Shown here one piece after another: positions 23,518 to 45,606 of a stretch of DNA of 64,000 nt. Both the position numbers and the translations under genes were made by a program. Every line of letters starts with the position of its first letter. Positions within the stretch are counted from its first letter, which is position 1. Under the pieces are notes generated by a model. The model saw only the letters and a program-made list of their open reading frames with translations. It did not search any database and was not told where the DNA came from. Source of the DNA: Hymenobacter sp. 15J16-1T3B (GTDB lineage Bacteria > Bacteroidota > Bacteroidia > Cytophagales > Hymenobacteraceae); assembly GCF_020711235.1 (NCBI RefSeq), contig NZ_JAJFAV010000011.1:62001-126000 (forward strand). The letters are read 5' to 3'.

Positions 23518-24544
<1,027 letters not shown>

Positions 24545-30242: not shown

Positions 30243-32435
30243 TTATTCGGCGGCTACGGCGGCGGCCTGTTCGTCCTTCACTTTGATGTCGGTGCCGAGG
30301 CGCTGCAGGTAGGCAATCAGCGCCACGATTTCCTTGTCCGACTTCACCTGAATGTCCTCTTTCGCGAGGTCGGCCACGATGCCGGCGGCCTGCTTTTGGG
30401 CCGCGGCTACGGCTTCCGTTTCGAAACCGGCCGGGTAGGGCGTGCCAAGCTTGCGCAGGGCGCTGATTTTGGCCGGGGTGCTGGAGTAGTCGATGCTATT
30501 CTCGAACAGCCAGGGGTAGGGCGGCATGATGGAGCCGGGCGACATGCTGGTGGGGTCCATCATGTGGTTGTAGTGCCAGGAGTGCGGGTACTTCTGGCCC
30601 ACGCGGTGCAAATCGGGCCCGGTGCGCTTCGAGCCCCAGAGGAAGGGCCGGTCGTACACGAATTCGCCGGCCTTGGAGTACTCGCCGTAGCGCTCGGTTT
30701 CGGAGCGGAAGGGACGCACCATCTGGGTGTGGCAGTTCACGCAGCCCTCGCGGATGTACAGGTCGCGGCCTTCCAGCTCCAGCGAGGTGTAGGGCTTCAC
30801 CGAGGCAATGGTGGGCACGTTGGACTTGATCATGAACGTCGGAATCATCTCCACCGCGCCGCCGATGAGGATGGCAATGGTGGCGCCGATGCTCAGCTGC
30901 ACGGGGCGGCGCTCAATCCAGCGGTGCCAGTGCCCGCCCTCGTGGCTGTGCTCGTGGTCGATGACGGCCGGGGCGTGGAACTTCTCGTTGGCCAGCAGGG
31001 TGCCGGCTTTGGCGGTCTGGTAGAGGTTGTACACCATCAGGAACACGCCGCTCAGGTAGAGCACCCCGCCGATGCCGCGCAGGTAGTACATCGGCACAAT
31101 CTGCATCACCGTCTCGAGGAAGTTGGCGTACTGCAGCATGCCTTCCTCGTTGAACTGCTTCCACATCAGGCCCTGCGTGAAGCCGGCCCAGTACATGGGC
31201 AGGGCGTAGAACAGGATGCCCAGGGTGCCCAGCCAGAAGTGCACGTTCATCAGCTTGCGCGAGTGAATCGGGGTCTGGTAGAGGCGCGGCCACAGCCAGT
31301 AGAGCACGGCGAAGGTCAAAAAGCCGTTCCAGCCCAGGGCGCCGACGTGCACGTGGGCCACAATCCAGTCGGTGAAGTGGGCAATGGCGTTGACGTTTTT
31401 CAGGCTCAGCATCGGGCCTTCGAAGGTGGCCATGCCGTAGGCCGTAATGGCCACCACCATGAACTTCAGGATGGGCTCCTGCCGCACCTTATCCCAGGCG
31501 CCGCGCAGCGTGAGCAGGCCGTTGATCATGCCGCCCCAGCTCGGAGCAATCAGCATCACGGAGAAGACCACGCCCAGCGACTGTGCCCAATCGGGCAGGG
31601 CGGTGTAGAGCAAGTGGTGCGGGCCGGCCCAGATGTAGATGAAAATCAGGGACCAGAAGTGAATGATGGAGAGGCGGTACGAGTACACGGGGCGCTCCGC
31701 CGCCTTGGGCAGAAAGTAGTACATCAAACCCAGGTAGGGCGTGGTGAGGAAGAAGGCTACCGCGTTGTGACCGTACCACCACTGCACCAGCGCGTCCTGC
31801 ACCCCGGCGTAGAGCGAGTAGCTCTTCATAAACGACACCGGAATTTCCATCGAGTTGACGATGTGCAGCACCGCTACCGTCAGGAAGGTGGCAATGTAGA
31901 ACCAGATGCCGACGTACAGGTGCTTTTCCTTGCGGCGGGCAATGGTGCCGAACATGTTCCAGCCGAACACCACCCAGATCAGCGTAATGGCAATGTCGAT
32001 GGGCCACTCCAGCTCGGCGTATTCCTTAGAGGTGGTGAAGCCCAGCGGCAAGGTGGCCACGGCCGAAACGATGATGAGCTGCCAGCCCCAGAAGTGGATT
32101 TTGCTCAGCAAATCCGAGTACATCCGGGTCTTGCACAGGCGCTGCAGGGAGTAGTACACGCCGGTGAAGATGCCGTTGCCGACGAAGGCGAAGATGACGG
32201 CGTTGGTGTGCAGCGGGCGGATGCGGCCGAAGGTGGTGTAGGGCGTGCCCATGTTCAGCTCGGGCCGCGCCAGCTGAAAGGCCGCAATGACGCCGATGAG
32301 CATGCCGGCAATGCCCCAGAACACGGTGGCAACGCCGAAGTCTCGGACGATTTTGTTGTCGTAAAACGAGGCGAGAACGGCCTTGGACAGAGGTTTTTCC
32401 TCTCCCGGCAGTTTCGCTGGAGCCAGCACAGCCAT
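30243..32435 (-). CDS. ccoNO: Fused cbb3 oxidase subunits I and II (CcoN-CcoO)
   Basis: This 730-residue fusion has CcoN at residues 1-480: 12 helices with haem and CuB histidines at His76 (RPLHTNA), His223 (YGHNAV), His273-274 (GPHHLLY) and His361/363 (HVHVG). A His-rich linker (HEHSHEGGHWH, about 494-504) follows. The CcoO part has one helix (IGATIAILIGGAVEMIP), a haem c site CVNCH (565-569) and the usual RTGPDLHRVG and MPPYPWL motifs. It is the catalytic core of a high-affinity terminal oxidase that reduces oxygen to water and pumps protons. The fusion is typical of Bacteroidota. A conserved CRP/FNR-type promoter precedes it. Confidence 0.97.
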   Translation of the reverse strand: MAVLAPAKLPGEEKPLSKAVLASFYDNKIVRDFGVATVFWGIAGMLIGVIAAFQLARPELNMGTPYTTFGRIRPLHTNAVIFAFVGNGIFTGVYYSLQRLCKTRMYSDLLSKIHFWGWQLIIVSAVATLPLGFTTSKEYAELEWPIDIAITLIWVVFGWNMFGTIARRKEKHLYVGIWFYIATFLTVAVLHIVNSMEIPVSFMKSYSLYAGVQDALVQWWYGHNAVAFFLTTPYLGLMYYFLPKAAERPVYSYRLSIIHFWSLIFIYIWAGPHHLLYTALPDWAQSLGVVFSVMLIAPSWGGMINGLLTLRGAWDKVRQEPILKFMVVAITAYGMATFEGPMLSLKNVNAIAHFTDWIVAHVHVGALGWNGFLTFAVLYWLWPRLYQTPIHSRKLMNVHFWLGTLGILFYALPMYWAGFTQGLMWKQFNEEGMLQYANFLETVMQIVPMYYLRGIGGVLYLSGVFLMVYNLYQTAKAGTLLANEKFHAPAVIDHEHSHEGGHWHRWIERRPVQLSIGATIAILIGGAVEMIPTFMIKSNVPTIASVKPYTSLELEGRDLYIREGCVNCHTQMVRPFRSETERYGEYSKAGEFVYDRPFLWGSKRTGPDLHRVGQKYPHSWHYNHMMDPTSMSPGSIMPPYPWLFENSIDYSSTPAKISALRKLGTPYPAGFETEAVAAAQKQAAGIVADLAKEDIQVKSDKEIVALIAYLQRLGTDIKVKDEQAAAVAAE

Positions 32436-32464: not shown

Positions 32465-32507
32465 CAAAACTCCGAATCGGGCCGCCGGCAAAAGATGACG
32501 AACGTCA
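32465..32507 (-). promoter_or_regulatory. CRP/FNR-type promoter of ccoNO
   Basis: Reading the minus strand, the palindrome TGACGTTCGTCA (32507-32496) is followed by TTTTG (32493-32489), a 16 nt spacer and GAGTTTTG (32472-32465, one mismatch to TAnnTTTG). The palindrome centre is 36.5 nt from the last G of the -7 box, placing it near -41 from an expected start site, the usual place for an FNR-type activator. The same order and spacing recur before ccoI. Confidence 0.7.
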
Positions 32508-32571
32508 GCCACGCCGGCTGATTGATGTCAGGCGAACCTGGCAGAACGGTCAACCAGCGTCGAAAAAAGCC

Positions 32572-32766
32572 CGTCATCCTCATCTGGCGTACGCGCAGCG
32601 AAGGACCCTCCTCCCACCCCGCCCCGCCGCTGCCTACGAAGCGCCGACGCTTTTTAGAAATGCCGAAGCGCAGCCCCCACGGCCCGGACGATTGGGCGTT
32701 GGTGGCTGCGCTTTACAGTTGGTGCAAGGTGCGCGGAAGGTCCTTCGCCTGCGGCTCAGGATGACG
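32572..32766. repeat. Dispersed intergenic element (family B) between the DoxX-like and ccoNO genes
   Basis: It starts CGTCATCCT and ends AGGATGACG, with inner arms GCGCAGCGAAGGACC and GGTCCTTCGCCTGC. The right 71 bp match the copy at 27119-27188. Together with the ccoNO promoter it fills the 347 bp gap between the two genes. Confidence 0.82.
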
Positions 32767-32782
32767 TGCTTTTTTGCGCTAC

Positions 32783-33217
32783 TCAGCCTTCCCGCTGCTT
32801 GCGGCTTTGCCACAGCGCCTTGAGCGCGCCGGTGCTCCACAGGGCCCAGGCCACCAGCACGGGCTGGAAGAACAGCCGCGCCAGCCGCTTCTGGTCGGTG
32901 TCGAGGCCGAAGGCGCTCAGGTGGTGGGTGTACTGGTGCACGTTGCCGGGGAAAACGGCCACGTAGAACGCGCCCAGCGCCAGGCCCAGCGCCGCCCGTT
33001 CGCGCTTCCAGAACAGCAGCGAGAGGCCCAGCCCGATTTCGACCACGCCCGAGAGCAGCACGGTGGTGTCTTTGGCGAGGGGCACGAAGTCGGGCACCTG
33101 GGCCTGAAACTCGCGCCGCTGAAAGGTGAGGTGGCCGGTGCCGGCCGCTACCATAAAAGTGCCGAGGATGCTGCGGGCGGCATCCTGCAACGTAGTCGTC
33201 TTGGTGTGGTGTCGCAT
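32783..33217 (-). CDS. DoxX-family membrane protein
   Basis: This 144-residue protein has about four hydrophobic segments: RSILGTFMVAAGTGHLTF, VLLSGVVEIGLGLSLLFW, LGLALGAFYVAVFPGNVHQY and FFQPVLVAWALW. The pattern, including the NVHQY-type loop, fits DoxX/DoxD-like proteins. Their function is not settled; some are linked to quinone or thiosulfate oxidation and oxidative stress. I chose the ATG at 33217 over the longer frame from 33262. Its place inside the cbb3 cluster, between ccoS and ccoNO, hints at a membrane redox role. Confidence 0.75.
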   Translation of the reverse strand: MRHHTKTTTLQDAARSILGTFMVAAGTGHLTFQRREFQAQVPDFVPLAKDTTVLLSGVVEIGLGLSLLFWKRERAALGLALGAFYVAVFPGNVHQYTHHLSAFGLDTDQKRLARLFFQPVLVAWALWSTGALKALWQSRKQREG

Positions 33218-33345
33218 GGTGGTCGGCGCGGGGAGTTGGCCCCGCTGCCCATGCGTACGCACCGGCTGGTCAATAGGGTGGCACCCGGCGCCTATTCTGC
33301 GAAGCAGCCAAGGTGTTGAACGGACGCGGCGCTAGGCGCCGTTAC

Positions 33346-33355
33346 GACGAACGTC
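33346..33355. promoter_or_regulatory. Weak partial match to the CRP/FNR-type palindrome upstream of the DoxX-like gene
   Basis: GACGAACGTC equals the core of the ccoNO/ccoI palindrome but lacks the outer T and A. It is 129 nt upstream of the DoxX-like start. It may be a degenerate site or chance. Confidence 0.2.
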
Positions 33356-33369
33356 CTGCTTTCTGCTTG

Positions 33370-33534
33370 CTACTGCTCAGCGCGCTGCTGCGTTTCGTCG
33401 TCTTCGAAGAGCATGCGCACGGCGGGCGTGTAGGTGTCGTCGTATTGCTGCGTGCGCACGGCCCACACGAAGGCCAGTAGAAAGAGCACGGCCACGCAGA
33501 GCGAAATGGTGATGAGGCCGAAGATGATTTCCAT
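33370..33534 (-). CDS. ccoS: CcoS, cbb3 oxidase maturation protein
   Basis: This 54-residue protein starts at the ATG at 33534. One membrane helix (TISLCVAVLFLLAFVWAV) is followed by the FixS/CcoS-type tail RTQQYDDTYTPAVRMLFEDD, in which the D-D-x-x-TPA-x-R-x-L-F/DD pattern is characteristic. CcoS is needed for insertion of haem b and CuB into CcoN. The start is 14 nt after the ccoI stop, in one transcript. The gene is easily missed because of its length. Confidence 0.93.
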   Translation of the reverse strand: MEIIFGLITISLCVAVLFLLAFVWAVRTQQYDDTYTPAVRMLFEDDETQQRAEQ

Positions 33535-33548
33535 AAGTCAGAGTGGGG

Positions 33549-36056
33549 TTAGAGGTGGCGCCGGTGGGCGGCGTAGCGCACCAGCAGGGTGGCAAACACC
33601 ATCACGCTCAGGGAGCTGATGGGCATCAGAATGGCAGACACGATGGGCGTGAACTTGCCTTGCACCGCGAGGCCCAGGCCGAGGCCGTTGTAGACGAAGG
33701 AGAGGACGAAGGTGGCCAGCACCACCTGCAGGCAGTCGCGGGTGAAGGCCAGGAAGGTGCTCAGCCGCCCGAAGCTGCCGGCGTCGAGGATGGCGTCGCA
33801 GGCGGGCGAGAAGTTGGTGAGCGTGTCGGTGAGGGCCACGCCGGCGTCGGCCTGTTGCAGGGCGCCGGCGTCGTTGAGCCCGTCGCCGACCATGATGACC
33901 GTTTCGCCGCGCTGCTTCAGTTCGGCCACGTAGTCGAGCTTCTGCTGGGGCGTCTGGCGGAAGCGCAACTCGGCCGCGGGGCCGAACAGCTGGCGCAGGC
34001 GGTCCTGTTCGGTGTCGTTGTCGCCCGAGAGTACGGCCAGGCGGTAGCGGCGGCCGAGGTCGGCCAGCACCGGGCCCAACTGCTGACGGTACACGTTGCG
34101 GAACACGAAGCAGCCCTGCAGGTCGTCGGCCAGGCTCACGTACACGCGCGACTGCAGCTTGTCGGTCGTGGCGGACGCGGCCAGCGTGGCCTCGGGCGCC
34201 CCGGCCGATTGCGCGAGGTTTACCCCTTGGGCCGGTGCGAGGCTGGGGTCAGCACCCGCGGCCGAGGGCTCGGCCGTGTCTATGCCCACAAATGCGGCCG
34301 AGCCCACTTTCACCGTCACCCCGCCGACCACGCCGCGCAGGCCCTGGCCGGGCACTTCCACGAAATTGGCCACGGGCAGCGCAGCGCTGGGCAGCTGCTG
34401 GGCCAGGCGCTGGCTGAGCGGGTGGGTGCTCTGGGCCACCACGGCCGCCACGGCTTGCTGCTCCCGCTCGGTCAGCACGGGGCCGCAGTACTCCACGGCC
34501 GAGCGCTGCACGTCGGTGAGCGTGCCGGTTTTGTCGAACACAATGGTGGTGGCGCGGCCCAGCGTTTCGGCCACGCCCGAGTTTTTCAGGAAAAACTTGT
34601 GCCGGCCAAACACCGCCAGGGCGCTGCCCAGGGCAAAGGGCGTGGCCAGCGAGAGGGCGCAGGGGCAGGCAATGACGAGCACCGAGGTGAAGGCCCGCCA
34701 CATCATCTGCTCATCGCGCGGGTACCAGTACAGGATGGCGCCGGCCGCAATCAGCAGGGTAGCAGCCACGAAGTAGCGGCCCACGCGGTTGGCGTAGGTT
34801 TCCAGGGTTTGGGCGTCGGCTTTCTGAAACGCGGGGTTGTTCCAGAGCTGGGTGAGGTAGCCCTGCGACACCTCGCGCACCACCTCCAGCTCCACCGCCT
34901 CGCCCACCTGCCGGCCGCCGGCGTACACCACTTCGCCCGCCACCTTGGCCACCGGCACGCTCTCGCCCGTCACAAAGGAGTAGTCGATCTGCCCGGCGCC
35001 GCGCATGAGCATGGCGTCGGCCGGAATGACTTCCTGGTTGCGCACGCGGATGCGCTGGCCCACCTGCAGGTCTTTTACCGACACCGACTTCTCCCCTTCC
35101 GCCGTGAGCAAGGTCACGGCCACCGGGAAGTAAGAGGTGAAGTCGCGGTCGAAGCGCAGCGCGTCGTAGGTGCGCTGCTGCACCCACTTGCCGATGAGCA
35201 TGAAAAACACCAGGCCCGTAAACGAGTCGAAGTAGCCCGCGCCGCTGTGGCTGAGCACCTCGTAGGTGCTCACGCTAAAGAGCGACGTCAGCCCCAGGCT
35301 GATGGGGAAGTCGAGGTTGATGGTGCGCTGGCGCAGCCCGGCCCAGGCCGAGCGGTAGAATCCCTGGGCGCCGTAAAGCAGCACCGGCAGGGCCAGCAGC
35401 AAGCTCAGGTAGCCGAAAAAGTGGCCGAACTTGGCGGCCAGCTCGTCGGTGAAGGAAAGGTAATCGGGGAAGGCCAGCAGCATCACGTTGCCAAAGCAGA
35501 AGCCGGCCAGGCCCAGTTGGTAGTAGATGCGGCGGTTGCCGTGGTTGGGCTGCGCGCCCAGCTCGGCCAGCGTAATCTGCGGCTCGTAGCCCAGCGCAGC
35601 CAGCAGCTTCACCACCTCCTTGAGCGAGGTGTCGGCGGGCCGGTAGCTCAGGCTGATTTCCTTGCGCAGGAAGTTGACCCGCGAGTCCGTCACGCCGGGG
35701 TTGAGCTGGTAGAGGCGCTCCAGCAAATAGATGCAGGAAGCGCAGTGCATCTGCGGCAGGTGCAGGGTGAGGCGGGCCAGCTCGGCGGAGCGGAAGCTCA
35801 GCAGCTGGGCCTGCACCGAGTCGGCGTCGAGGTAATCGAAGCGGCCGGGCAGCTCCACGGGCTGAATTTTCTGGCCGGGGTGCTCGTCCAGGGCGTAGTA
35901 CTGGCACAGGTTGCTGGCGTCGAGCAGCTCGTACACGGCCTTGCACCCCTGGCAGCAGAAGGCCTTGCCGCGGAGCCGGATGGGCTCGGCGGGGCAGTCG
36001 TCGCCGCAGTGGGCGCAGGCCGTGGCGGTATGGATTGGTTCGGCGGTGAGGTTCAC
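33549..36056 (-). CDS. ccoI: CcoI/FixI copper-exporting P1B-type ATPase
   Basis: This 835-residue ATPase has an N-terminal metal-binding region with CAHCGDDC and FCCQGCKAVYEL, a heavy-metal-associated domain with MHCASC, eight expected helices, the CPC motif in VIACPCALSLATP, phosphorylation motif DKTGTLT and MVGDGLNDAGAL. FixI-type pumps supply copper to the cbb3 centre. An Ala/Pro-rich insert (about ADPSLAPAQGVNLAQSAGAP, near 34190-34260) interrupts the nucleotide-binding region and is not typical. I prefer the GTG at 36056; the upstream frame begins with TTG and covers promoter elements. It is the first gene of the minus-strand cluster. Confidence 0.95.
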   Translation of the reverse strand: MNLTAEPIHTATACAHCGDDCPAEPIRLRGKAFCCQGCKAVYELLDASNLCQYYALDEHPGQKIQPVELPGRFDYLDADSVQAQLLSFRSAELARLTLHLPQMHCASCIYLLERLYQLNPGVTDSRVNFLRKEISLSYRPADTSLKEVVKLLAALGYEPQITLAELGAQPNHGNRRIYYQLGLAGFCFGNVMLLAFPDYLSFTDELAAKFGHFFGYLSLLLALPVLLYGAQGFYRSAWAGLRQRTINLDFPISLGLTSLFSVSTYEVLSHSGAGYFDSFTGLVFFMLIGKWVQQRTYDALRFDRDFTSYFPVAVTLLTAEGEKSVSVKDLQVGQRIRVRNQEVIPADAMLMRGAGQIDYSFVTGESVPVAKVAGEVVYAGGRQVGEAVELEVVREVSQGYLTQLWNNPAFQKADAQTLETYANRVGRYFVAATLLIAAGAILYWYPRDEQMMWRAFTSVLVIACPCALSLATPFALGSALAVFGRHKFFLKNSGVAETLGRATTIVFDKTGTLTDVQRSAVEYCGPVLTEREQQAVAAVVAQSTHPLSQRLAQQLPSAALPVANFVEVPGQGLRGVVGGVTVKVGSAAFVGIDTAEPSAAGADPSLAPAQGVNLAQSAGAPEATLAASATTDKLQSRVYVSLADDLQGCFVFRNVYRQQLGPVLADLGRRYRLAVLSGDNDTEQDRLRQLFGPAAELRFRQTPQQKLDYVAELKQRGETVIMVGDGLNDAGALQQADAGVALTDTLTNFSPACDAILDAGSFGRLSTFLAFTRDCLQVVLATFVLSFVYNGLGLGLAVQGKFTPIVSAILMPISSLSVMVFATLLVRYAAHRRHL

Positions 36057-36095
36057 GCGGGAAGGGCGCCCGACACGGGGCTTCTGGTGGCTGGG

Positions 36096-36138
36096 CAAAT
36101 TTCCCCCGCCCCCGCCCGCCAAAAGCTGACGAACGTCA
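36096..36138 (-). promoter_or_regulatory. CRP/FNR-type promoter of ccoI
   Basis: On the minus strand, TGACGTTCGTCA (36138-36127), then TTTTG (36124-36120), a 16 nt spacer and GAAATTTG (36103-36096) repeat the exact layout of the ccoNO promoter. The palindrome and flanks (36120-36141) match 32489-32510 at 21 of 22 bases. The predicted start codon lies about 40 nt further down. Confidence 0.7.
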
Positions 36139-36149
36139 GCCCGCCGAAC

Positions 36150-36161
36150 TGATCCTCGTCA
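36150..36161. promoter_or_regulatory. Second CRP/FNR-type site upstream of ccoI
   Basis: TGATCCTCGTCA (TGAT-N4-GTCA) lies 23 bp, about two helical turns, from the centre of the main ccoI palindrome. It lies toward the divergent membrane protein/haemoglobin operon, so it might serve either side. The rest of this 307 bp gap (36057-36363) holds no gene. Confidence 0.45.
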
Positions 36162-36363
36162 GCGCCCGCGCCCGCCCCTCGCCGGACTTTTGGGGTGTTG
36201 TTCCGGGGTTCGGTCGGCGCTGATGCCGGCCGTTTCTTTTCCCCTGTAGCCGCCCTTCGGCTTTAACCGGCGGATTGGAGCCGCTTCACGGCTCTCGCTT
36301 TCGTTGTTTTACAAGTGACACGACGGCTTTTGAAGTGCGCGTGCCACCTTGCCTTCCTTGCGT

Positions 36364-36861
36364 ATGCGTCCCCTGTCCCCTACCCTTGCCCTGCTGCTGG
36401 TGCTGGCCCTATTTCTGTGGGCGGGCATGATCTGCGGCATTTCTTTTCTGGAAGCGCCCCTGAAGTTTACCGCCCCGGGCATCACCGTGACCTTGGGCGT
36501 GGGCATCGGCCGCATTGTATTCCACGCGCTCAACAAGGTGGAGCTGGCCCTGAGCGTGGTGGCCCTGCTCTGCGCCGCCCGCCTGGGCGTGGCTTCGCGC
36601 ATCTGGACGACCCTGCTCGTCGCCGTGCTGATTCTGGCCGCCCAGACGCTATGGCTGCTGCCCGCGCTAGACGTGCGGGCCGTAGCTTTGCAGGCGGGCT
36701 CGCCCAACCCTCCCAACTCCCAGCATGTGACTTACGTGGTGCTGGAAGCCGGCAAGCTGCTTTGCCTGCTGACCACCGGCATGCTGGCCTTCCGCTGGAC
36801 GCTGCGCCAGACCCGCCGGCAAGAGTCGCACCGCTATGCCCGGCGGCACCAAGCGGCCTGA
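36364..36861 (+). CDS. Four-helix membrane protein of unknown function (DUF4149-like)
   Basis: The product has 165 residues with four hydrophobic segments: LALLLVLALFLWAGMICGIS, a central KVELALSVVALLCAARLG, TLLVAVLILAAQTLWLLP and VVLEAGKLLCLLTTGML. The first is followed by FLEAPLKFTAPGI, the repeated pattern of small membrane proteins sometimes labelled DUF4149. No catalytic motif is visible. It is divergent from ccoI and 46 nt upstream of a truncated haemoglobin, so a link to oxygen or haem biology is reasonable but unproven. The frame is open from 36349; the ATG at 36364 starts just before the first helix. Confidence 0.7.
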   Translation: MRPLSPTLALLLVLALFLWAGMICGISFLEAPLKFTAPGITVTLGVGIGRIVFHALNKVELALSVVALLCAARLGVASRIWTTLLVAVLILAAQTLWLLPALDVRAVALQAGSPNPPNSQHVTYVVLEAGKLLCLLTTGMLAFRWTLRQTRRQESHRYARRHQAA

Positions 36862-36907
36862 GCCGTTGTTGTCCCGCCGTATTCCCGCCCGCTCACTTTT
36901 CGCTGCC

Positions 36908-37306
36908 ATGTCCGCTGCCCCCGCTTCCCTGCCCGATATTCAAACCGAAGCCGACATACAGGCTCTCGTCGACTGGTTTTACGACAAGGTCAATCAGGAC
37001 GAACTGCTCGGTCCGGTTTTCAACGACGTGGCCGCCGTGCACTGGCCAGCACACCTGCCCACCATGTACGACTTCTGGAGCAGCATTCTATTGGGCACCG
37101 CCCGCTACAAGGGCCGTCCGTTCCCCAAGCACTTGGCCCTGCCGATTGAAAAACCGCATTTTCAGCGCTGGCTGCAGCTGTTTTACCAGACCGTAGCCGA
37201 AAACTTTGCGGGCCCTAAGGCCGAGGAAGCCAAGGTCAAGGCCCTGAACATTGCCACCATGTTTGAGTACCGCATGCGGCCCAAGTCGTCCTTGTCGCTG
37301 CTCTAA
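36908..37306 (+). CDS. Group III truncated haemoglobin
   Basis: This 132-residue globin has the features of the group III (TrHbP) family: DIQTEADIQALVDWFYDKV, DELLGPVFNDV, WPAHLPTMYDFWSSILLG and PIEKPHFQRWLQLFYQTV, in which the His of KPHF is the likely proximal ligand. It ends with YRMRPKSS. These small globins bind oxygen, nitric oxide or other ligands and are common beside micro-aerobic respiratory genes. I chose the ATG at 36908; the longer frame overlaps the preceding gene. A strong terminator follows. Confidence 0.9.
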   Translation: MSAAPASLPDIQTEADIQALVDWFYDKVNQDELLGPVFNDVAAVHWPAHLPTMYDFWSSILLGTARYKGRPFPKHLALPIEKPHFQRWLQLFYQTVAENFAGPKAEEAKVKALNIATMFEYRMRPKSSLSLL

Positions 37307-37534: not shown

Positions 37535-37626
37535 ATTATTTTCTACCTAACCGCGCAACACCAAAAACCGCATAATGACGCATAAAACGCACAAATCAGA
37601 CACAAAGCCCCATACCTACTCGCATT

Positions 37627-37644
37627 TTCGGTATCGTTTCCGAA
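37627..37644. promoter_or_regulatory. Promoter-proximal LacI-family operator-like site (xyl operon)
   Basis: TTCGGTATCGTTTCCGAA is an imperfect palindrome (7 of 9 positions symmetric) around a central CG. It lies 24 nt upstream of a TACCTTTC -7-like box (37669-37676), so a bound repressor would cover the -33 region of the GH43 promoter. Confidence 0.65.
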
Positions 37645-37668
37645 TAGCACTAATTCCAAATTTCCTCT

Positions 37669-37676
37669 TACCTTTC
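37669..37676 (+). promoter_or_regulatory. Putative -7 element of the xyl operon
   Basis: TACCTTTC differs from TAnnTTTG by the last base and lies 42 nt before the GH43 start codon. The surrounding 37480-37680 DNA is AT-rich compared with its neighbours. The rest of the 37385-37718 gap holds no gene besides the operator sites. Confidence 0.4.
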
Positions 37677-37718
37677 CGAGGCTTCGCTGCTGAGTACCTG
37701 CCCGCCCTTTCCCACCCA

Positions 37719-39407
37719 ATGCGCTTCGTTCCCCGGCTTCGTGCATTCGTTCTGGCCTCTGCCTGGCTGCCCCAGGCCGTCTGGCTGGTGCTACTGCTGA
37801 CGGCAGTTGGCGGCGGGCTGCCTAGAGCCGCGCAAGCCCAAAGCACCTTGTCGAAGGTGTGGGTGCCCGACCTGGGCAACGGCAGCTACAAAAACCCGAT
37901 ACTCTACGCCGACTACTCCGACCCCGACGCCATTCGCGTGGGCGAGGATTTTTACCTGACCTCGTCGAGCTTCAACGCGGTGCCGGGCCTGCAAATCCTG
38001 CACTCAAAGGACCTGGTCAACTGGTCGCTAATCGGGGCCGTGTTCAACGAGCAGCCGCCGCTGGCGCGCTACGCGGTGCCCCAGCACGGCAACGGCGTGT
38101 GGGCCCCGGCCCTGCGCTACCACAACAAGGAGTTCTACATCTACTACCCCGACCCGGACCTGGGCATTTTTGTCACCAAGGCCAAGAACCCCGCCGGGCC
38201 GTGGTCGGCGCCGGTGTGCCTGAAGCAGGCCAGCGGCTGGATTGACCCCTGCCCGCTTTGGGACGCGGACGGCAAGGCCTACCTCGTGCACGGCTTCGCC
38301 GGCTCGCGGGCGGGCATCAAAACCATTCTGGCCGTGTCGCCGATGAGCGCCGACGGCCTGAGCCTGACCGGCCCCGACGCGCTGGTATTCGACGGGCACC
38401 AAGGCCACCCCACGCTGGAAGGGCCGAAGTTTTATAAGCGCAACGGCTACTACTACATCTTCGCGCCGGCCGGCGGCGTGCCCACGGGCTGGCAACTGGT
38501 GCTGCGCGCCACGAACGTGTACGGCCCCTACGAGGAGCGTATCGTGATGGACCAGGGCAAGACCCCGATCAACGGCCCGCACCAGGGCGCCTGGGTGGAT
38601 ACCAACGCCGGCGAAGACTGGTTTCTGCACTTCCAGGACCAGGGCCCCTACGGCCGCGTAGTGCACCTGCAGCCCATGGTCTGGAAAAACGGCTGGCCCG
38701 TCATCGGCGAAGACCCCGACGGGGACGGCAAAGGCCAGCCGGTGCTGACCTACCGCAAGCCCAAAATCAAGGGCAAAGCCCAGCCGCTGGCCACCCCGCC
38801 GACGTCGGATGAATTCAGCTCGAACCAGCTGGGCCTGCAATGGCAGTGGCACGCCAACCCGCAGGACTACTGGGCTTTCTTGAACGGCCCGCAGGGCTAC
38901 TTGCGCCTCTATGCCATGCCGCTGGCCGAAGGCTACAAGAACCTCTGGCAGCAGCCCAACCTGCTGCTGCAGAAGCTGCCCGCTGACGTGTTTACCGCCA
39001 CTGCCAAGTTACGTTTCGACTCCCGCCTGGAAGGTGAAAAGCTGGGTCTGGTAATCATGGGCCTGGATTACGCCTACCTCAGTCTGACCAACCAAGGCGG
39101 CAAGTTGCAGCTCAGCCAGAGCGTGTGCAAGGACGCCGACAAGGGCTCGGCGGAAGCCACCACGGCCGCCGTGCCGCTCTCCGCCGACCAAGCCAAACAG
39201 CCCGTGTACCTGCGCGTGGCGGTGAAGCCCGGCGCCAAGTGTCAGTTCAGCTACAGCTTCGACGGGCAGGCCTTCCAACCGCTCGGGGCGGAGTTTCAGG
39301 CCCGGGAAGGCAAGTGGATCGGCGCCAAAGTGGGCCTGTTCTGCACCCGCCCCGGCAAGTTCAACGACAGCGGCAACGCCGACATCGACTGGTTTAGAAT
39401 CGAGTAA
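37719..39407 (+). CDS. GH43 glycoside hydrolase (beta-xylosidase / arabinofuranosidase type)
   Basis: This 562-residue secreted enzyme has a signal peptide (WLVLLLTAVGGGLPRAAQAQ), then a GH43 five-blade propeller. The catalytic base lies in YADYSDPDAIR, the pKa modulator in SGWIDPCPLWDADGKAYLVHG and the general acid in TLEGPKFYKRNGYYY. The C-terminal ~200 residues form a beta-sandwich (DEFSSNQLGLQWQWHANP onward) as in XynB-like enzymes. It cleaves beta-1,4-xylosides and/or alpha-L-arabinofuranosides; the xylose genes downstream favour xylosides. I chose the ATG at 37719 because the signal peptide starts there and the upstream frame covers operator and promoter sites. Confidence 0.93.
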   Translation: MRFVPRLRAFVLASAWLPQAVWLVLLLTAVGGGLPRAAQAQSTLSKVWVPDLGNGSYKNPILYADYSDPDAIRVGEDFYLTSSSFNAVPGLQILHSKDLVNWSLIGAVFNEQPPLARYAVPQHGNGVWAPALRYHNKEFYIYYPDPDLGIFVTKAKNPAGPWSAPVCLKQASGWIDPCPLWDADGKAYLVHGFAGSRAGIKTILAVSPMSADGLSLTGPDALVFDGHQGHPTLEGPKFYKRNGYYYIFAPAGGVPTGWQLVLRATNVYGPYEERIVMDQGKTPINGPHQGAWVDTNAGEDWFLHFQDQGPYGRVVHLQPMVWKNGWPVIGEDPDGDGKGQPVLTYRKPKIKGKAQPLATPPTSDEFSSNQLGLQWQWHANPQDYWAFLNGPQGYLRLYAMPLAEGYKNLWQQPNLLLQKLPADVFTATAKLRFDSRLEGEKLGLVIMGLDYAYLSLTNQGGKLQLSQSVCKDADKGSAEATTAAVPLSADQAKQPVYLRVAVKPGAKCQFSYSFDGQAFQPLGAEFQAREGKWIGAKVGLFCTRPGKFNDSGNADIDWFRIE

Positions 39408-39424
39408 TCAGCATACCCAAAGAA

Positions 39425-39554
39425 CGCCATGCCCAGCTTGTCGAGACATCTCGCCGGATACTAATTATTTCTCCGAGGATGAAAACGCTATCCAGCATCA
39501 ACCGGCGAGATTCTTCGATCCTCGCTTGATGCCTCGAACTCGCTCGGAATGACG
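39425..39554. repeat. Degenerate palindromic element (family A) between GH43 and xylB
   Basis: It starts CGCCATGCCCAGCTTGTCGAGACATCTCG (split: outer CGCCATGCCCAGC, inner GAGACATCTCG) and ends CTCGGAATGACG, with CCGGCGAGATTCTTCGA inside. It has several mismatches and an extra insertion compared with the other copies. Confidence 0.7.
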
Positions 39555-39577
39555 TTCTGCGCAAACTTCAAACGCCC

Positions 39578-41086
39578 ATGCTTCTCCTAGGAATTGACCT
39601 TGGCACCTCGTCGGTAAAGGTTTCGGTGGTCGACGCGGCCACGCAGCGCTGCTTGGCGTCGGTGAGCTACCCCGAGACGGAGCGCGAAATCCTCGCGCGC
39701 CAGCCGGGCTGGGCCGAGCAGCAGCCCCTGCAGTGGTGGCAGGATGCCAAGCAGGCCATCCTGCTGGCCCACGCCACCCAGCAGTACAACCCGCAGGACA
39801 TAGGCGCCATCGGCATTGCCTACCAGATGCACGGCTTGGTGCTGGTGGACGAGCACCACCACGTGCTGCGCGACGCCATCATCTGGTGCGACTCGCGGGC
39901 CGTGCCCTACGGCGAGGCGGCCTTTCAGGCCATCGGCCCGGAGCAGTGCCTGACGCACCTGCTGAACTCGCCCGGCAACTTCACCGCCGCCAAGCTGGCT
40001 TGGGTGAAGGAGCACGAGCCCGAAGTGTACCAGCGCATCCGCCAGGTGATGCTGCCCGGCGACTTCCTGGCCTTGCAGCTCACCGGTGAGGCTACTACCA
40101 GCGTGTCGGCTCTGTCGGAAGGCATATTCTGGGACTTCGCCCGGCACCAGCTCTCCGAGGACGTATTCCGCTTCTTCGGTTTCGACGAAGAGTTGATTCC
40201 GCCGGTGCAGCCGGTGTTTGCCGAGCACGGCCGCTTGCGCGCGTCGGTGGCCGAAGAGCTGGATTTGCCGGTGGGCATTCCCGTCACCTACAAAGCCGGC
40301 GACCAGCCCAACAACGCCCTGTCGCTGAACGTGCTGCGCCCTGGCGAAGTGGCGGCCACGGCGGGCACCTCCGGCGTGATTTACGCCGTGACCGACCAGC
40401 TCTTCGTCGACCACCTCTCGCGCGTCAACCCCTTCGCCCACGTCAACCACGCGGCCGAGCAGATGCGCCTGGGCGTGCTGCTGTGCATCAACGGGGCGGG
40501 CAGCATGAACCGCTGGGCGAAGCAGGCGGTGGGCCGCGAATTGAGCTACCCCGAACTCAACCAGCGCGCCGCCCAGGTGCCGGCCGGCGCCGAGGGCCTG
40601 CTGTGCCTGCCCTTCGGCAACGGCGTGGAGCGCATGCTGGCCAACGAGCCCGTGGGCGCCCACTTCCTGCACCTCGACTTGAACGTGCACACCAGCAGCC
40701 ACCTGCTGCGGGCGGCCCAGGAAGGCGTGGCCTTTGCTTTCCGCTACGGCTTGGATTTGATGCGCGAAAACGGCCTGCACCCCACGGTCGTCAAGGCCGG
40801 CAAGACCAATATGTTCCTCAGCGAGGTCTTCGCCCAGGCTTTCGTCAACGCCACCGGCCTCGCGGTGGAGCTGTACCAGACCGACGGCTCGGTGGGCGCG
40901 GCCCTGGGCGCGGGCATCGGGGCCGGCACCTTCGCTACGCCCGATGACGCGTTCCGCAACGTGCAGCGTCTGCAGCTCATTGAGCCGAACGCGGAGGCCC
41001 CGGTGTACGAGCAGACTTACCAGCGCTGGAAAGCCGAGCTGCTGGCCCGCCTCCCGCAGCCGGAAGCCGCCCTAGCCAAAAGCTAA
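39578..41086 (+). CDS. xylB: Xylulokinase
   Basis: This 502-residue FGGY-family kinase has LLGIDLGTSSVKVSVVDA (phosphate-binding), IAYQMHGLVLVD (the MHG substrate motif), IIWCDSRA, AGDQPNNAL with the catalytic Asp242, AATAGTSGVIYAV, and the C-terminal VGAALGAGIGAG. It phosphorylates D-xylulose to xylulose 5-phosphate for the pentose phosphate pathway. It sits between GH43 and xylose isomerase, which fixes the pathway. The length is normal and the ATG at 39578 begins directly at the first strand. Confidence 0.95.
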   Translation: MLLLGIDLGTSSVKVSVVDAATQRCLASVSYPETEREILARQPGWAEQQPLQWWQDAKQAILLAHATQQYNPQDIGAIGIAYQMHGLVLVDEHHHVLRDAIIWCDSRAVPYGEAAFQAIGPEQCLTHLLNSPGNFTAAKLAWVKEHEPEVYQRIRQVMLPGDFLALQLTGEATTSVSALSEGIFWDFARHQLSEDVFRFFGFDEELIPPVQPVFAEHGRLRASVAEELDLPVGIPVTYKAGDQPNNALSLNVLRPGEVAATAGTSGVIYAVTDQLFVDHLSRVNPFAHVNHAAEQMRLGVLLCINGAGSMNRWAKQAVGRELSYPELNQRAAQVPAGAEGLLCLPFGNGVERMLANEPVGAHFLHLDLNVHTSSHLLRAAQEGVAFAFRYGLDLMRENGLHPTVVKAGKTNMFLSEVFAQAFVNATGLAVELYQTDGSVGAALGAGIGAGTFATPDDAFRNVQRLQLIEPNAEAPVYEQTYQRWKAELLARLPQPEAALAKS

Positions 41087-41107
41087 GTCCTGTCGGGCCA
41101 CCCAACC

Positions 41108-41217
41108 CGTCCTGTCGAGCTTGTCGAGACATCTCGCGTGCTGACGTCCAAGAGTAAACAGCCAGCCAACAGGAAATTACTATCCGGCGAGATGTCTCGA
41201 CTTCGCTCGACATGACG
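41108..41217. repeat. Palindromic element (family A) between xylB and xylA
   Basis: It starts CGTCCTGTCGAGC and ends GCTCGACATGACG, with inner arms GAGACATCTCG and CGAGATGTCTCG and the family's ATTACTATCCGG segment. It starts 22 nt after the xylB stop. Confidence 0.87.
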
Positions 41218-41276
41218 GCCTGGTGACCTCAGTGCCTCTTCTTCCCCACGAACACAACACCCCAATCATACTTCCC

Positions 41277-42605
41277 ATGAGCACCGTTCTCGACCAAAAG
41301 ACGCTCTTTAGCGCCATTCCCACCATCAAGTTTGAAGGCCTGGAGTCCGACAACCCCATGGCCTTCCGCTGGTACGACGAAAACCGCGTGGTGGCCGGCA
41401 AACCCATGAAGGAGTGGCTGCGCTTCGCCGGCGCCTACTGGCACTCCTTCAACGGCTCCGGCGCCGACCCCTTCGGCGAACCGACCCACCTGTTTCCCTG
41501 GGACTCGGAAGGCGACGCCATCACGCGCGCCAAGGCCAAGATGGACGCCGCGTTTGAGTTTCTGACTAAGCTGGGCCTGCCCTACTACTGCTTCCACGAC
41601 GTGGACGTGGTGGACTACACCAACGACGTGGCCGACAACGAGCGTCGCCTGCAGACCATGGTGGAGTACGCCAAGCAAAAGCAGCAGGAAACCGGCCTGA
41701 AGCTGCTCTGGGGCACGGCCAACCTCTTCTCGCACCGCCGCTACATGAACGGCGCCGCCACCAACCCCGACTTCCACGTGCTGGCCCACGGCGCGGCCCA
41801 GGTGAAAGCCGCCATCGACGCGACCATCGAGCTGGGCGGCGAAAACTACGTGTTCTGGGGCGGCCGCGAAGGCTACATGACCCTGCTGAACACCAACATG
41901 CAGCGCGAGCAGGAGAACTTCGCCCGCTTCCTGCACACCTGCAAGGACTACGCCCGCCGCAACGGCTTCCGGGGTACGTTCTTCATCGAGCCCAAGCCGA
42001 TGGAGCCCACCAAGCACCAGTACGACTACGACGCGGCCACCGTCATCGGCTTCCTGCGCCAGTACGATTTGCTCGGGGACTTCAAGCTGAACCTGGAAGT
42101 AAACCACGCCACGCTGGCCGGCCACACTTTCCAGCACGAACTACAGGTGGCCGCCGACGCGGGCCTGCTCGGCAGCATCGACGCCAACCGCGGCGACTAC
42201 CAGAACGGCTGGGACACCGACCAGTTCCCCAACGACATCTACGAGCTGACCGAGGCCATGCTGGTGATTCTGGAAGCCGGCGGGCTGCAGGGCGGCGGCA
42301 TCAACTTCGACGCCAAAATCCGCCGCAACTCCACCGACGTGCAGGATTTGTTCCACGCCCACATCGGCGGCATGGACATCTTCGCCCGCGCCCTCATCAC
42401 GGCCGACAACATCCTGCAGAAGTCGGATTACAAGCAGATCCGCCAGCAGCGCTACGCCTCGTTTGACGCGGGCGCCGGCGCCGCTTTCCGCCGGGGCGAG
42501 CTAACGCTGGAGCAGCTGCGCGACTACGCCGCCGAGCACGGCGAGCCGCAAATCATCAGCGGCCGGCAGGAGTACCTGGAGAACCTGATCAACCGCTACA
42601 TCTAA
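41277..42605 (+). CDS. xylA: Xylose isomerase
   Basis: This 442-residue enzyme is of the longer class II type. Diagnostic segments are [25 protein letters not shown] (catalytic His107), [29 protein letters not shown] (metal-ligand Glu and the Lys/His pair), [18 protein letters not shown] and [20 protein letters not shown]. It converts D-xylose to D-xylulose with divalent metal. The start is the ATG at 41277; the open frame reaches back to 41223 into a repeat. It is between xylulokinase and the symporter, in one operon. Confidence 0.97.
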
Positions 42606-42620
42606 GCGAAGAAATACGCG

Positions 42621-42679
42621 CTGCCGCCGAGAATTCCTGAGCCTACAGGATGCTACTCTCGGCGGCAGTGCGCATTTTT
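42621..42679 (+). terminator. Hairpin with T run just before the symporter start (attenuator-like)
   Basis: CTGCCGCCGAGA (42621-42632) pairs perfectly with TCTCGGCGGCAG (42657-42668). TGCGCA and five T follow, ending 31 nt before the GTG and 7 nt before the alternative TTG of the symporter. It may reduce read-through from xylA or shield the symporter translation start. Confidence 0.65.
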
Positions 42680-42710
42680 ACCGCCATTGCCTACCACCAA
42701 TCTTCTGCCA

Positions 42711-44408
42711 GTGCACCAACTTTCCACCCTCGACTACGTCGTCTTTTTCATCTACTTCCTGATTGTCGCCGGCTACGGCATCTGGGTGTACCGCCGCAAG
42801 ACCGGCCACGACGGCACCGCCGAAGGCGACTCCAAGGATTACTTTCTGGCAGAAGGCTCGCTCACGTGGTGGGCCATCGGCTCCTCGCTGATTGCCTCCA
42901 ACATTTCGGCCGAGCAGTTCGTGGGCATGTCGGGCTCGGGCTTCGGCATCGGCCTGGCCATTTCCACCTACGAGTGGATGGCGGCGCTGACGCTAGTCAT
43001 CGTGGCTACGTTCTTCATCCCGGTGTACCTGAAGAACCACATCTTCACGATGCCGCAGTTTCTGAGCCAGCGCTACAACGGCACGGTGGCCATGATCATG
43101 GCCATTTTCTGGCTGGCCCTGTACGTGGTGGTGAACCTGACCTCGATTCTCTACCTCGGCGCCATTGCCGTGAGCAGCATCTCGGGCCTGAGTCTGACGT
43201 TCTGCATGATTACGCTGGCCGTCTTCGCCGTCATCATCACCCTGGGCGGCATGAAGGTTATTGGCTTCACCGACGTAATTCAGGTGTTCTTCCTGATTCT
43301 GGGCGGCCTGGCTACCACCTACCTGGCCCTGAACCTGGTGGCCGAGCACTACGGGCAGTCGGGCGTGCTGGCGGGCTTCTCGCAGATGACCAAGCTGGCC
43401 AACGACCACTTCCACATGATCCTGAAGCGCGACGACGCGCACTACCTCGACTTGCCCGGCCTCACGGTGCTGCTCGGCGGCATGTGGATTGTGAACCTGA
43501 ACTACTGGGGCTGCAACCAGTACATCACGCAACGGGCGCTGGGAGCTGACCTGCCCACGGCCCGCAACGGCATCCTGTTCGCCGCGTTCCTGAAGCTGCT
43601 CATGCCCGTCATCGTCGTTCTGCCCGGCATTGCGGCCTACGTGCTCTACAAGGAAAACGTGTTCGGCCCGGCCGAATTCATGCAGGACGGCGAGCTGAAC
43701 CCCGACCGCGCCTACCCGGTGCTGCTCAACATTCTGCCGGTGGGTCTGAAAGGCCTGAGCTTCGCCGCCCTGACCGCGGCCGTGGTAGCCTCGCTGGCCG
43801 GCAAGGCCAACTCCATTGCCACCATCTTCACCCTCGACATCTACAAGAAGGTCATCAACACGGAAGCCTCGGAGAAAAAGCTCGTATCGGTGGGCAAAAT
43901 TGCGGTGGTGGTGGCCATGGTGCTGGGCGTGCTCATCGCCCCGTTCCTGGGCATCGATAAGAAGGGCGGGTTCCAGTTCATTCAGGAGTACACCGGCTTC
44001 GTGTCGCCGGGCATCTTCGCTATGTTCATTCTGGGCTTCTTCTGGAAGAAAACGACTTCCTCGGCGGCTCTGTTTGCTACCATCGGCGGCTTCGCCGGCT
44101 CGGTGTTCCTCAAGTTCCTGCCCCGCTTCGTCGACCTGGCCTTCCTGGCGCCCATCGGCTTTGCGGCCCCCAGCACCGACCCCAAGGAACACGGCATGTA
44201 CGTGATTCCCTTCCTCGACCGCATGGGCATCGTGTTCGTGTTCTGCGTGGTGGCCATGGTCATCATCAGCCTCCTCGAAACCAGCCGCGGCGTCAAGCCC
44301 AAGGGCCTGGAAGTCGACGCCTCGATGTTCCGCCCGCACCGCAGCTTCGCCATCGGCTCGGTCGTGGTCATTGCCCTGCTCACGGCGCTTTACACCATCT
44401 ACTGGTAG
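42711..44408 (+). CDS. SSS-family sodium/sugar symporter (probably xylose)
   Basis: This 565-residue transporter has about 13-14 helices of the solute:sodium symporter family. Visible hallmarks are DYVVFFIYFLIVAGYGIWVY in helix 1, FLAEGSLTWWAIGSSLIASNIS with the sodium-site residues, GGMKVIGFTDVIQVFF, NYWGCNQYITQRALGA and AALTAAVVASLAGKANSIATIF. It resembles vSGLT-type sugar carriers. In a xylose operon lacking another permease, xylose import is the likely role. No ATG is available at the N-terminus: I chose GTG 42711 (MHQLSTLDYVVF); TTG 42687 would add eight residues. Confidence 0.9.
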   Translation: MHQLSTLDYVVFFIYFLIVAGYGIWVYRRKTGHDGTAEGDSKDYFLAEGSLTWWAIGSSLIASNISAEQFVGMSGSGFGIGLAISTYEWMAALTLVIVATFFIPVYLKNHIFTMPQFLSQRYNGTVAMIMAIFWLALYVVVNLTSILYLGAIAVSSISGLSLTFCMITLAVFAVIITLGGMKVIGFTDVIQVFFLILGGLATTYLALNLVAEHYGQSGVLAGFSQMTKLANDHFHMILKRDDAHYLDLPGLTVLLGGMWIVNLNYWGCNQYITQRALGADLPTARNGILFAAFLKLLMPVIVVLPGIAAYVLYKENVFGPAEFMQDGELNPDRAYPVLLNILPVGLKGLSFAALTAAVVASLAGKANSIATIFTLDIYKKVINTEASEKKLVSVGKIAVVVAMVLGVLIAPFLGIDKKGGFQFIQEYTGFVSPGIFAMFILGFFWKKTTSSAALFATIGGFAGSVFLKFLPRFVDLAFLAPIGFAAPSTDPKEHGMYVIPFLDRMGIVFVFCVVAMVIISLLETSRGVKPKGLEVDASMFRPHRSFAIGSVVVIALLTALYTIYW

Positions 44409-44438
44409 ACCACCGGCCCGCGTACGCGCTATTGATTA

Positions 44439-44483
44439 CGGCGCCGGCTCGCTCCCAAGCGGAGTGAGCCGGCGCCGTTTTTT
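44439..44483 (+). terminator. Rho-independent terminator of the xyl operon
   Basis: A 17 bp stem (44439-44455 and 44461-44477, one G-T wobble) with a 5 nt loop is followed by six T. It lies 30 nt after the symporter stop. Confidence 0.93.
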
Positions 44484-44577
44484 CAACCGAAAAAGGTATT
44501 TCTGGCGAAAATCGTCTGGCACCTCCTCTCCTTTTCGGCGGGGGAGGCGTACCGTCAGAACGACGAGGGGAATCGGG

Positions 44578-45606
44578 TTAGCGCACCGACGAATCCCGCA
44601 CGATGAGCTGGGGCTTGAGCACGATGCGCTGAGCGGTGAAATACTCCGTGCGCTTATGAATCTGCAGAAACAGCTGCACGGCGGCCCGGCCCATCAGCTC
44701 CCCGCGCTGGTCGACGGAAGTTAGCCGGGGCTTCACCATGGTGGTAAAAGGTTCGTTGCTGAAGCCGGCCAGCGCCACGTCCTGGGGCACGCGCAGGCCG
44801 CGCTCCTCCAGCAGCTGCAGGGCCCCGCCGGCCGGAAAGTCGTAGGCCGAAAACACCGCGTCGGGCCGCACGGGGCCGTCGAGCAGGGCCTGCATGGCCT
44901 CGGCGCCGGCTTCGGTCGAGGAGTTGCGCAGGCGCACCACCAGCCGCTCGTCGTAGCGCAGGCCGTGGGCCTGCAGGGCGTCGCGGTAGGCGCGGTGGCG
45001 GTCGGCAGTGGTGTTGATGGTGGCCGGACCGGCGAAGTGGGCAATGCGCTCAAAGCCCTGCCGGATCAGGTGCTCCATGAGCTGGTAGGCCCCGCGGTAA
45101 TCGTCGACCACCACCCCGCAGGCGTTGGGCAAGTCAGTGGGCATGCGGTCGAAAAACACCAGCGGCGTGGCCTGGTTGCGCACTTTCTCGAAGTGGGCGA
45201 AGCTGCGCGTGGTGTTCGACATGGACACCAGCACCCCGTCGACCTGGGCCGTGAGCAGGGCCTCCACGTGCTTGCGCTCCTGCGCCTCGTCCTCGTTCGA
45301 CTGGCAGATGAGCACGTTGAAGCCGGCTTGGCTGGCTACTTCCTCGATGCCGTGCACCACGGCCGGAAAAAACGCCCCGTTGATGTGCGGCACGATGACG
45401 CCGAGCATGTTGCTGCGGCCCCGGCGCAGGGCCGCAGCGAGGCTGTTGGGGCGGTAGCCGAGCTTGTCGGCCAGGGCCCACACCTGCGCCTTGGTGGCCT
45501 CGCTCACGTCGGGGGCGTTGTTGAAGGCCCGCGAAACGGTCGAAATCGACAGCCCCAGCTCGGCGGCCAGGTCGGCAATGGAAAGGCGTTTGTTGGCTTT
45601 GGCCAT
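44578..45606 (-). CDS. LacI-family transcriptional regulator, probable xylose repressor
   Basis: This 342-residue regulator has an N-terminal LacI HTH (about 8-55: LSIADLAAELGLSISTVSRAFNN, hinge LGYRPNSLAAALRRGRS) and a periplasmic-binding-like effector domain (MLGVIVPHINGAFFPAVVHG, ... DAVFSAYDFPAGGALQLLEE, VALAGFSNEPFTTMV). It is convergent with the xyl operon across its terminator. Two operator-like sites with central CG precede GH43, and these fit a LacI-family dimer. The effector is presumably xylose or a xyloside; this is inferred from position. Confidence 0.92.
   Translation of the reverse strand: MAKANKRLSIADLAAELGLSISTVSRAFNNAPDVSEATKAQVWALADKLGYRPNSLAAALRRGRSNMLGVIVPHINGAFFPAVVHGIEEVASQAGFNVLICQSNEDEAQERKHVEALLTAQVDGVLVSMSNTTRSFAHFEKVRNQATPLVFFDRMPTDLPNACGVVVDDYRGAYQLMEHLIRQGFERIAHFAGPATINTTADRHRAYRDALQAHGLRYDERLVVRLRNSSTEAGAEAMQALLDGPVRPDAVFSAYDFPAGGALQLLEERGLRVPQDVALAGFSNEPFTTMVKPRLTSVDQRGELMGRAAVQLFLQIHKRTEYFTAQRIVLKPQLIVRDSSVR

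Follow-up and report, generated by a model that had tools for sequence, protein, structure and literature searches.

Which regulator reads the promoters of ccoNO and ccoI, and what signal it answers to, is the question raised by a stretch of 64,000 nucleotides from Hymenobacter sp. 15J16-1T3B (contig NZ_JAJFAV010000011.1, positions 62,001 to 126,000; hereafter the window, to which plain coordinates refer). How oxygen controls the cbb3 oxidase is well understood in Proteobacteria; our literature search, in which few subscription journals are covered, returned no receiver-CRP (REC-CRP) regulator and no operator of the kind reported here described for Bacteroidota. We consider it likely that both genes have class II-like, activator-dependent promoters belonging to a low-oxygen regulon, and that these are switched by a FixL-like kinase together with a REC-CRP response regulator encoded in the same window. 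This reading is built on the sites, their fixed spacings and conservation, the genes that recurrently neighbour them, and the persistence of the pattern where REC-CRP is a genome's only protein with a full-length CRP-family helix-turn-helix (HTH) match.

Tandem operators upstream of ccoNO and ccoI

The ccoNO promoter region is composed of the following features:

30243–32435, minus strand: ccoNO, coding for fused cbb3 oxidase subunits (COX1 and FixO in Pfam)
32465–32472, minus strand: -7 box of ccoNO, GAGTTTTG, with a predicted transcription start at about 32460
32496–32507, minus strand: proximal site of ccoNO, TGACGTTCGTCA, a predicted activator site with a predicted centre at -41.5
32519–32530, minus strand: distal site of ccoNO, TGACATCAATCA, 23 bp upstream of the proximal site

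The ccoI region additionally includes a divergent unit:

33549–36056, minus strand: ccoI, coding for a copper P-type ATPase for cbb3 assembly (Pfam), its start re-set to GTG 36056 by comparison
36096–36103, minus strand: -7 box of ccoI, GAAATTTG, with a predicted start at about 36091
36127–36138, no strand assigned: site TGACGAACGTCA, proximal for ccoI (minus strand) and distal for the divergent plus-strand promoter
36150–36161, no strand assigned: site TGATCCTCGTCA (TGACGAGGATCA on the minus strand), serving ccoI as its distal site (23-bp spacing) and lying 31 nt from the box of the divergent plus-strand promoter, for which it is proximal
36185–36192, plus strand: -7 box of the divergent promoter, GACTTTTG, with a predicted start at about 36197
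36364–36861, plus strand: small membrane-protein-like gene (by eye), without a Pfam match, the first gene of the divergent unit
36836–37306, plus strand: bacterial-like globin gene (PF01152, Bac_globin), the second gene of the divergent unit

The 12-mer TGACGAACGTCA is present at 32496–32507 and 36127–36138, the sole exact matches within the window, and with up to two mismatches there are 15 matches where 2.7 are expected. The original prediction described it as a perfect palindrome with 21 of 22 flanking bases identical; the 12-mer is indeed common to both promoters, but it is composed of two 5-bp arms flanking AA, and the 21 of 22 identity is that of a 22-nt block (GGC + 12 + 7) with the palindrome inside it, not of the flanks alone. 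Reading towards each gene, both promoters have the site, 2 nt, TTTTG, 16 nt and GAnnTTTG, with 31 nt from the end of the site to the end of the box, just as had been reported.

The proposed architecture was that of a CRP/FNR-type site at a fixed distance from the box, which holds, but the promoters are not of the single-site kind. The second site noted before ccoI is present at 36150–36161, and a second ccoNO site at 32519–32530 (TGATTGATGTCA), absent from the original prediction, has the same 23-bp spacing as the ccoI pair; both promoters are tandem. The ccoI promoter is also bidirectional: the 36150 site is 31 nt from a plus-strand box as well, and one operator pair therefore faces two promoters. 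This divergent box lies at 31 nt from the site in six of eight genus genomes (G000, G079, G082, G083, G084, G085), and in G080 and G081 it reads CACCTTTG and lies at 32 nt. For ccoI itself, GTG 36056 is the more likely start, because translation from TTG 36122 would overlap the promoter; the G084 start is its closest counterpart.

Conservation of the sites and their spacing

The pattern is well above its controls at each level, from the 6.33 Mb genome of 15J16-1T3B (G000) through eight Hymenobacter genomes (G000 and G079–G085) to 98 genomes of the order; backwards or reversed patterns, or reversed sequences, served as controls for these site counts. In the own genome the tandem arrangement TGA-N6-TCA-N10/11-TGA-N6-TCA occurs at 6 places and never backwards, and TGA-N6-TCA-N24-AnnTTTG at 10 places with 1 backwards. 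The 12-mer TGACGNNCGTCA alone is found at 21 places (we inspected the surroundings of 15 by reading) against 8 for the backwards control and is thus weakly informative, and it was dropped as sole criterion in favor of site spacing. Across the genus there are 3 to 6 tandem matches per genome and no control match in any, and 59 single-site matches against 8 controls; a tandem pair is upstream of both ccoNO and ccoI in all eight genomes. Order-wide, 39 of the 98 genomes carry the full pattern, with 88 matches in all and 1 reversed.

The cco promoters were scored individually in 80 ccoN regions from named relatives and in 61 ccoI regions (loci with a plus-strand ccoI match starting by query residue 60 and with enough sequence), allowing one core mismatch per site. 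Tandem sites together with the 31-nt box are present in 47 of the ccoN and 20 of the ccoI regions, and in none of the 141 reversed. When spacing is left free in the ccoN regions, exact site pairs are 22 bp apart in 31 cases, 23 bp in 4, and 24–37 bp in 6; distances from site to box are 31 nt (26 cases), 32 nt (1), 53 nt (31) and 54 nt (5), with 4 in all at 12, 20 or 43 nt, and the 36 at 53–54 nt are mainly distal sites. The reversed sequences contain none.

The shared GA in place of TA in the -7 box was originally presented as a deviation. The window boxes, GAnnTTTG, are one base off the Bacteroidota sigma-A box TAnnTTTG, but 47 distinct tandem promoters begin their box with G (23), T (19) or C (5), in a search that itself required the A and TTT[GA], and G at this position is no oddity. 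The TTTTG at about -33 is in both window promoters and is otherwise conserved only partly, with T at 21 to 27 of the 47 across the four T positions and G at 15. The scan of own and related genomes called for by the original prediction shows that the full pattern is not scattered at random and has almost no reversed matches, and this, together with the spacing fixed among relatives, supports a predicted pair of CRP/FNR-type activator-dependent promoters.

A candidate REC-CRP activator and its probable sensor kinase

The proposed activator and a sensor kinase are encoded next to each other, and a divergent gene on the far side of the kinase has an operator of its own:

21397–21738, minus strand: thioredoxin-like gene (by eye), divergent from the kinase
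21795–21806, minus strand: proximal site TGACGAATATCA, 31 nt from the box CAATTTTA (21764–21771), towards the thioredoxin-like gene
21818–21829, minus strand: degenerate distal site TGATAGATGTTA, with 5 of 6 core bases and 23-bp spacing
21901–23517, plus strand: PAS sensor histidine kinase with a predicted FixL-like haem PAS, its start (ATG 21901) set by eye, just before REC-CRP
23495–24544, plus strand: REC-CRP response regulator (receiver, cNMP_binding and HTH_Crp_2), the proposed activator

The 23495–24544 protein, already put forward as the regulator, is the best candidate, with an FNR-like protein elsewhere in the genome as a second plausible binder. Its Pfam matches are PF00072 (E 6.4e-28), PF00027 (E 6.3e-25) and PF13545 (E 2.2e-17). 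In the receiver, the phospho-acceptor Asp 52, the acidic pair, the Thr and Lys 104 are each present in 37 of 37 aligned rows, as are Glu 314 and Arg 318 of the HTH helix, which we take to be the recognition-helix Glu and Arg with which CRP/FNR proteins read TGA/TCA. Arg-Ser-Ala is the cyclic-nucleotide-binding motif of this family; its likely position in REC-CRP is occupied by Asp/Glu (33/37), Ser/Thr (30/37) and Ala (34/37) in the aligned REC-CRP rows.

Three proteins of the own genome match a CRP-family HTH above the Pfam cut-off: the window REC-CRP, a second REC-CRP and the FNR-like protein. G079 and G082, both 99% complete, have a single full-length HTH_Crp_2 match, the REC-CRP orthologue; their other matches are partial and of at most 27 bits, and the tandem ccoNO and ccoI promoters are kept. 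H. translucens (G002/L017) is a third REC-CRP-only genome, with a distal ccoI site of 5/6, although the completeness figure covers G079 and G082 only. Order-wide, the pattern is present in 31 of 46 genomes with REC-CRP and 8 of 52 without (Fisher 1.4e-7, uncorrected for kinship), and of the 74 sites in REC-CRP genomes 31 are within 15 kb of a REC-CRP gene (likewise uncorrected; the G166 fragments and the 266-aa frame of G141 count as REC-CRP here). We conclude that REC-CRP suffices as the candidate activator.

The kinase has PAS, HisKA and HATPase_c domains (Pfam). Compared with solved structures, its PAS domain matches FixL first (1d06, E 6.2e-12), followed by DosP and another haem PAS protein. 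In 37 of 40 aligned rows, that of the window kinase among them, a His stands at the position of a FixL His (HEHDGY in 1d06) that is presumably the haem ligand. The kinase has the sequence features of the FixL type (PAS with His, HisKA, HATPase_c), and haem binding and kinase activity in the absence of oxygen are predicted.

Proposed mechanism

When oxygen is low, REC-CRP would be phosphorylated by the FixL-like haem-PAS kinase, and dimers of its CRP part would occupy the TGA-N6-TCA pair on a single helix face, with roughly two helical turns between the sites. A centre at -41.5 is the class II position, and a site at such a distance is usually activating. Start-site mapping in Flavobacterium psychrophilum places TAnnTTTG at -12 to -5 (PMC9723704, in the part available), and from that placement the window starts and site centres near -41.5 and -64.5 are predicted (distal -63.5 in relatives with 22-bp spacing). 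The proximal dimer would then touch RNA polymerase at a promoter with the -7 box GAnnTTTG and a weak -33 element. By this mechanism ccoNO and ccoI, 3.6 kb apart, would be switched on together, and the ccoI pair would also drive the divergent globin unit, with the roles of proximal and distal site exchanged between the two directions.

A bolder version, which we advance tentatively and think somewhat less probable than its absence, is a compressed FixL-FixJ-FixK system in Bacteroidota: the haem-PAS kinase would act on one REC-CRP protein alone, and phosphorylated receivers would bridge two adjacent CRP dimers on the two-turn tandem operator, giving a cooperative oxygen switch that could fire two opposite promoters from one operator pair and would be open to an FNR-type protein as well.

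Several observations weigh against control by the FixL-like kinase and REC-CRP. Among genomes with REC-CRP 15 of 46 are without an exact match, the pattern is kept in 8 of 52 genomes lacking REC-CRP, and a tandem ccoN promoter is present in 4 of the 12 FNR-only genomes; because of these last two counts the tandem arrangement is not exclusive to REC-CRP. At the level of single loci, 33 of 80 ccoN and 41 of 61 ccoI regions were not scored as tandem. G079 has one further partial HTH match just at the cut-off (27 bits, positions 27–69 in a frame of 155 aa), and the Hymenobacter kinases are without the exact FixL GIGR/GKGR motif, which is present in Pedobacter, Mucilaginibacter and Pontibacter relatives. 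From the 21795–21829 sites there is no 31-nt box towards the kinase; only the thioredoxin side carries one, and autoregulation of the kinase is therefore left unproven. The -41.5 placement uses the box position of another genus, although the 31-nt spacing itself is constant, and we infer binding, activation, oxygen sensing and start sites from sequence.

Other candidate regulators

The FNR-like protein (G000:C22:340649-341356) probably shares the box where it is present, the own genome included. A specific form of this, compatible with control by REC-CRP and to our mind just short of an even chance, is a division of labor in which REC-CRP at mild oxygen limitation and FNR near anoxia use one operator. 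Both protein types co-occur with the TGA-N6-TCA box and the 31-nt spacing, and there is a precedent in Rhizobium leguminosarum, where hFixL-FxkR-FixK and FnrN share the anaerobox (PMC7888657, in the passages available); for Hymenobacter the sharing is drawn from co-occurrence.

It is rather unlikely that the FNR-like protein is the main activator in the own genome, with REC-CRP acting elsewhere or as a modulator, although this alternative has points in its favor that count against REC-CRP. The protein has an N-terminal Cys cluster, a VVC Cys and a TETASR helix, a pattern we liken to that of E. coli FNR. A tandem site with the 31-nt box begins 150 bp behind its gene, and similar sites are beside the FNR-like gene in several relatives; 8 of the 88 order-wide sites are within 2 kb of a standalone CRP/FNR gene (in this count 47 of 55 standalone rows were used, the own second REC-CRP row was excluded, and the 8 excluded rows share no contig with a site). 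The FNR-like gene is directly upstream of ccoI at three loci (L022, L023, L071), and sites at 31 nt are present in some FNR-only genomes. Against it, G079 and G082 have no FNR match and no full-length CRP-family HTH besides REC-CRP, yet their sites are unchanged, and in G005, G006, G022–G024, G030 and G038 the one FNR-query match each is of REC-CRP length.

The ratio of tandem to single promoters, ccoN and ccoI summed, also disfavors FNR as main activator: it is 46:1 in REC-only genomes, 6:5 in FNR-only genomes and 13:5 in those with both, with classes assigned from open-frame length and query coverage (2 of the 80 ccoN loci, L038 and L039, have no class, and 5 genomes at ccoN fall in neither class). 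The REC-only and FNR-only contrast (Fisher 5.5e-4, uncorrected for kinship) is suggestive, but a rule that tandem means REC-CRP and single means FNR is stopped by the six FNR-only tandem cases, all of which come from metagenome-assembled genome (MAG) records, which may lack genes.

The second REC-CRP protein (G000:C11:529001-529582) is a very improbable regulator of these promoters. By eye its domains follow in the same order, its HTH match is full, and there is a tandem site near a gene like it in G081; no second protein of REC-CRP length was found in G079, G082, G083, G084 or G085, where the promoters are kept, and the kinase on the G081 stretch is without the conserved His. On that stretch (L185, G081:C8:27300-30300), a thioredoxin-like gene near the second REC-CRP-like gene carries its own tandem site.

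We give almost no credence to the sites binding a repressor, or to their resembling each other by chance or through repeats in GC-rich DNA. In favor of these readings, activation is a prediction and TGACGNNCGTCA alone gives 21 places against 8, but the 22/23-bp and 31-nt spacings are fixed over many families with reversed controls almost nil, and the site distance is the usual activating position of class II promoters.

Genes behind the sites in Hymenobacter

In Hymenobacter, tandem sites precede ccoNO and ccoI in all eight genomes, UspA in six, and a thioredoxin-like gene divergent from the kinase and a cupin in three each; gene names beyond the window were assigned by eye. The thioredoxin-like gene has the full tandem version in G082, G083 and G085. 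Behind the FNR-like gene and a tandem site is a roadblock-like gene, read in G000 (G000:C22:340649-341570; L098, L112) and G084 (L196), and there is a tandem site at the same place behind the FNR-like gene in G080, G081 and G083. Single sites at the 31-nt spacing are found at a phosphate acetyltransferase gene, pta (G000, G081), a fatty-acid desaturase gene (G000, G079), and a truncated globin gene (G082, G085). We infer from this assortment—respiration, fermentation, oxygen-dependent desaturation, stress proteins and globin—one low-oxygen regulon theme. Three other genes of the own genome follow a single site, one NrfD/ActC-like (where the site is within an upstream frame), one glycoside-hydrolase-like and one of unknown kind, and with 59 genus matches to 8 controls these three may be chance.

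The truncated-globin-like genes with a single 31-nt site are at L203 and L206, and similar DNA is present at G083:C6:816254; the globin gene in the window, unlike these, stands behind the divergent ccoI promoter. Three genomes have TGATATTTATCAAGCG variants with a 31-nt box (G000:C22:372178, G080:C21:332121, G081:C21:283982 and G081:C24:31285), which may be a family of their own or a repeat. Within the window there is a short ccoS-like frame (by eye, 33370–33534) between ccoI and the gene at 32783–33262, which has a MauE match under the Pfam cut-off, and the region 37575–45606 reads by eye as a xylose-use cluster with a glycoside hydrolase, xylulokinase, xylose isomerase, sugar symporter and LacI-type regulator.

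Comparison with known systems

The predicted system resembles the FixL-FixJ-FixK cascade that controls fixNOQP in rhizobia in having a haem-PAS kinase, a receiver, a final activator of the CRP type, cbb3 and assembly genes as targets, and an upstream dyad site. It differs in that the rhizobial FixJ is a separate protein with a LuxR-type HTH that turns on a separate fixK, whereas here one protein carries both the receiver and the CRP HTH, which leaves no FixJ-to-fixK transcription step. Tandem operators and a -7 box of putative Bacteroidota type are further differences. The Hymenobacter system may work like the FixLJ-K cascade, but by definition it is none. FNR/CRP class II promoters share the TGA-N6-TCA dyad, predicted here to centre near -41.5, and a poor -35-like element; the promoters described here differ in having two dimer sites side by side and a putative sigma-A promoter of the TAnnTTTG/GAnnTTTG type.

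The anaerobox is TTGAT-N4-ATCAA in the passages available of PMC7888657, and is written TTGA-N6-TCAA in those of PMC5582078; compared with the window core TGAC-N4-GTCA, only TGA-N6-TCA is common. Both proximal sites read TGACG-N2-CGTCA, with outer bases C/T (ccoNO) and C/G (ccoI) where the anaerobox has T/A. The same portion of PMC7888657 describes, for R. leguminosarum, a kinase pathway coexisting with an FNR-type sensor, and an fnrN gene with two boxes that act oppositely, the distal (-34) activating and the proximal (-2) repressing; in Hymenobacter both sites are upstream, in a 22/23-bp register. F. psychrophilum has the TAnnTTTG sigma-A box and a cbb3 oxidase strongly up under oxygen limitation (PMC9723704, same part), and the main text of that paper, being without the words crp and fnr, names no such regulator; the matching passages of PMC4999443 hold nothing on a receiver-CRP fusion.

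For Hymenobacter, these findings name a likely sensor and a likely activator for the cbb3 oxidase genes, and suggest a one-polypeptide version of the textbook cascade. They also provide a rule—two TGA-N6-TCA sites 22 or 23 bp apart and a [T/G]AnnTTTG box ending 31 nt beyond them—by which regulons may be predicted from sequence.

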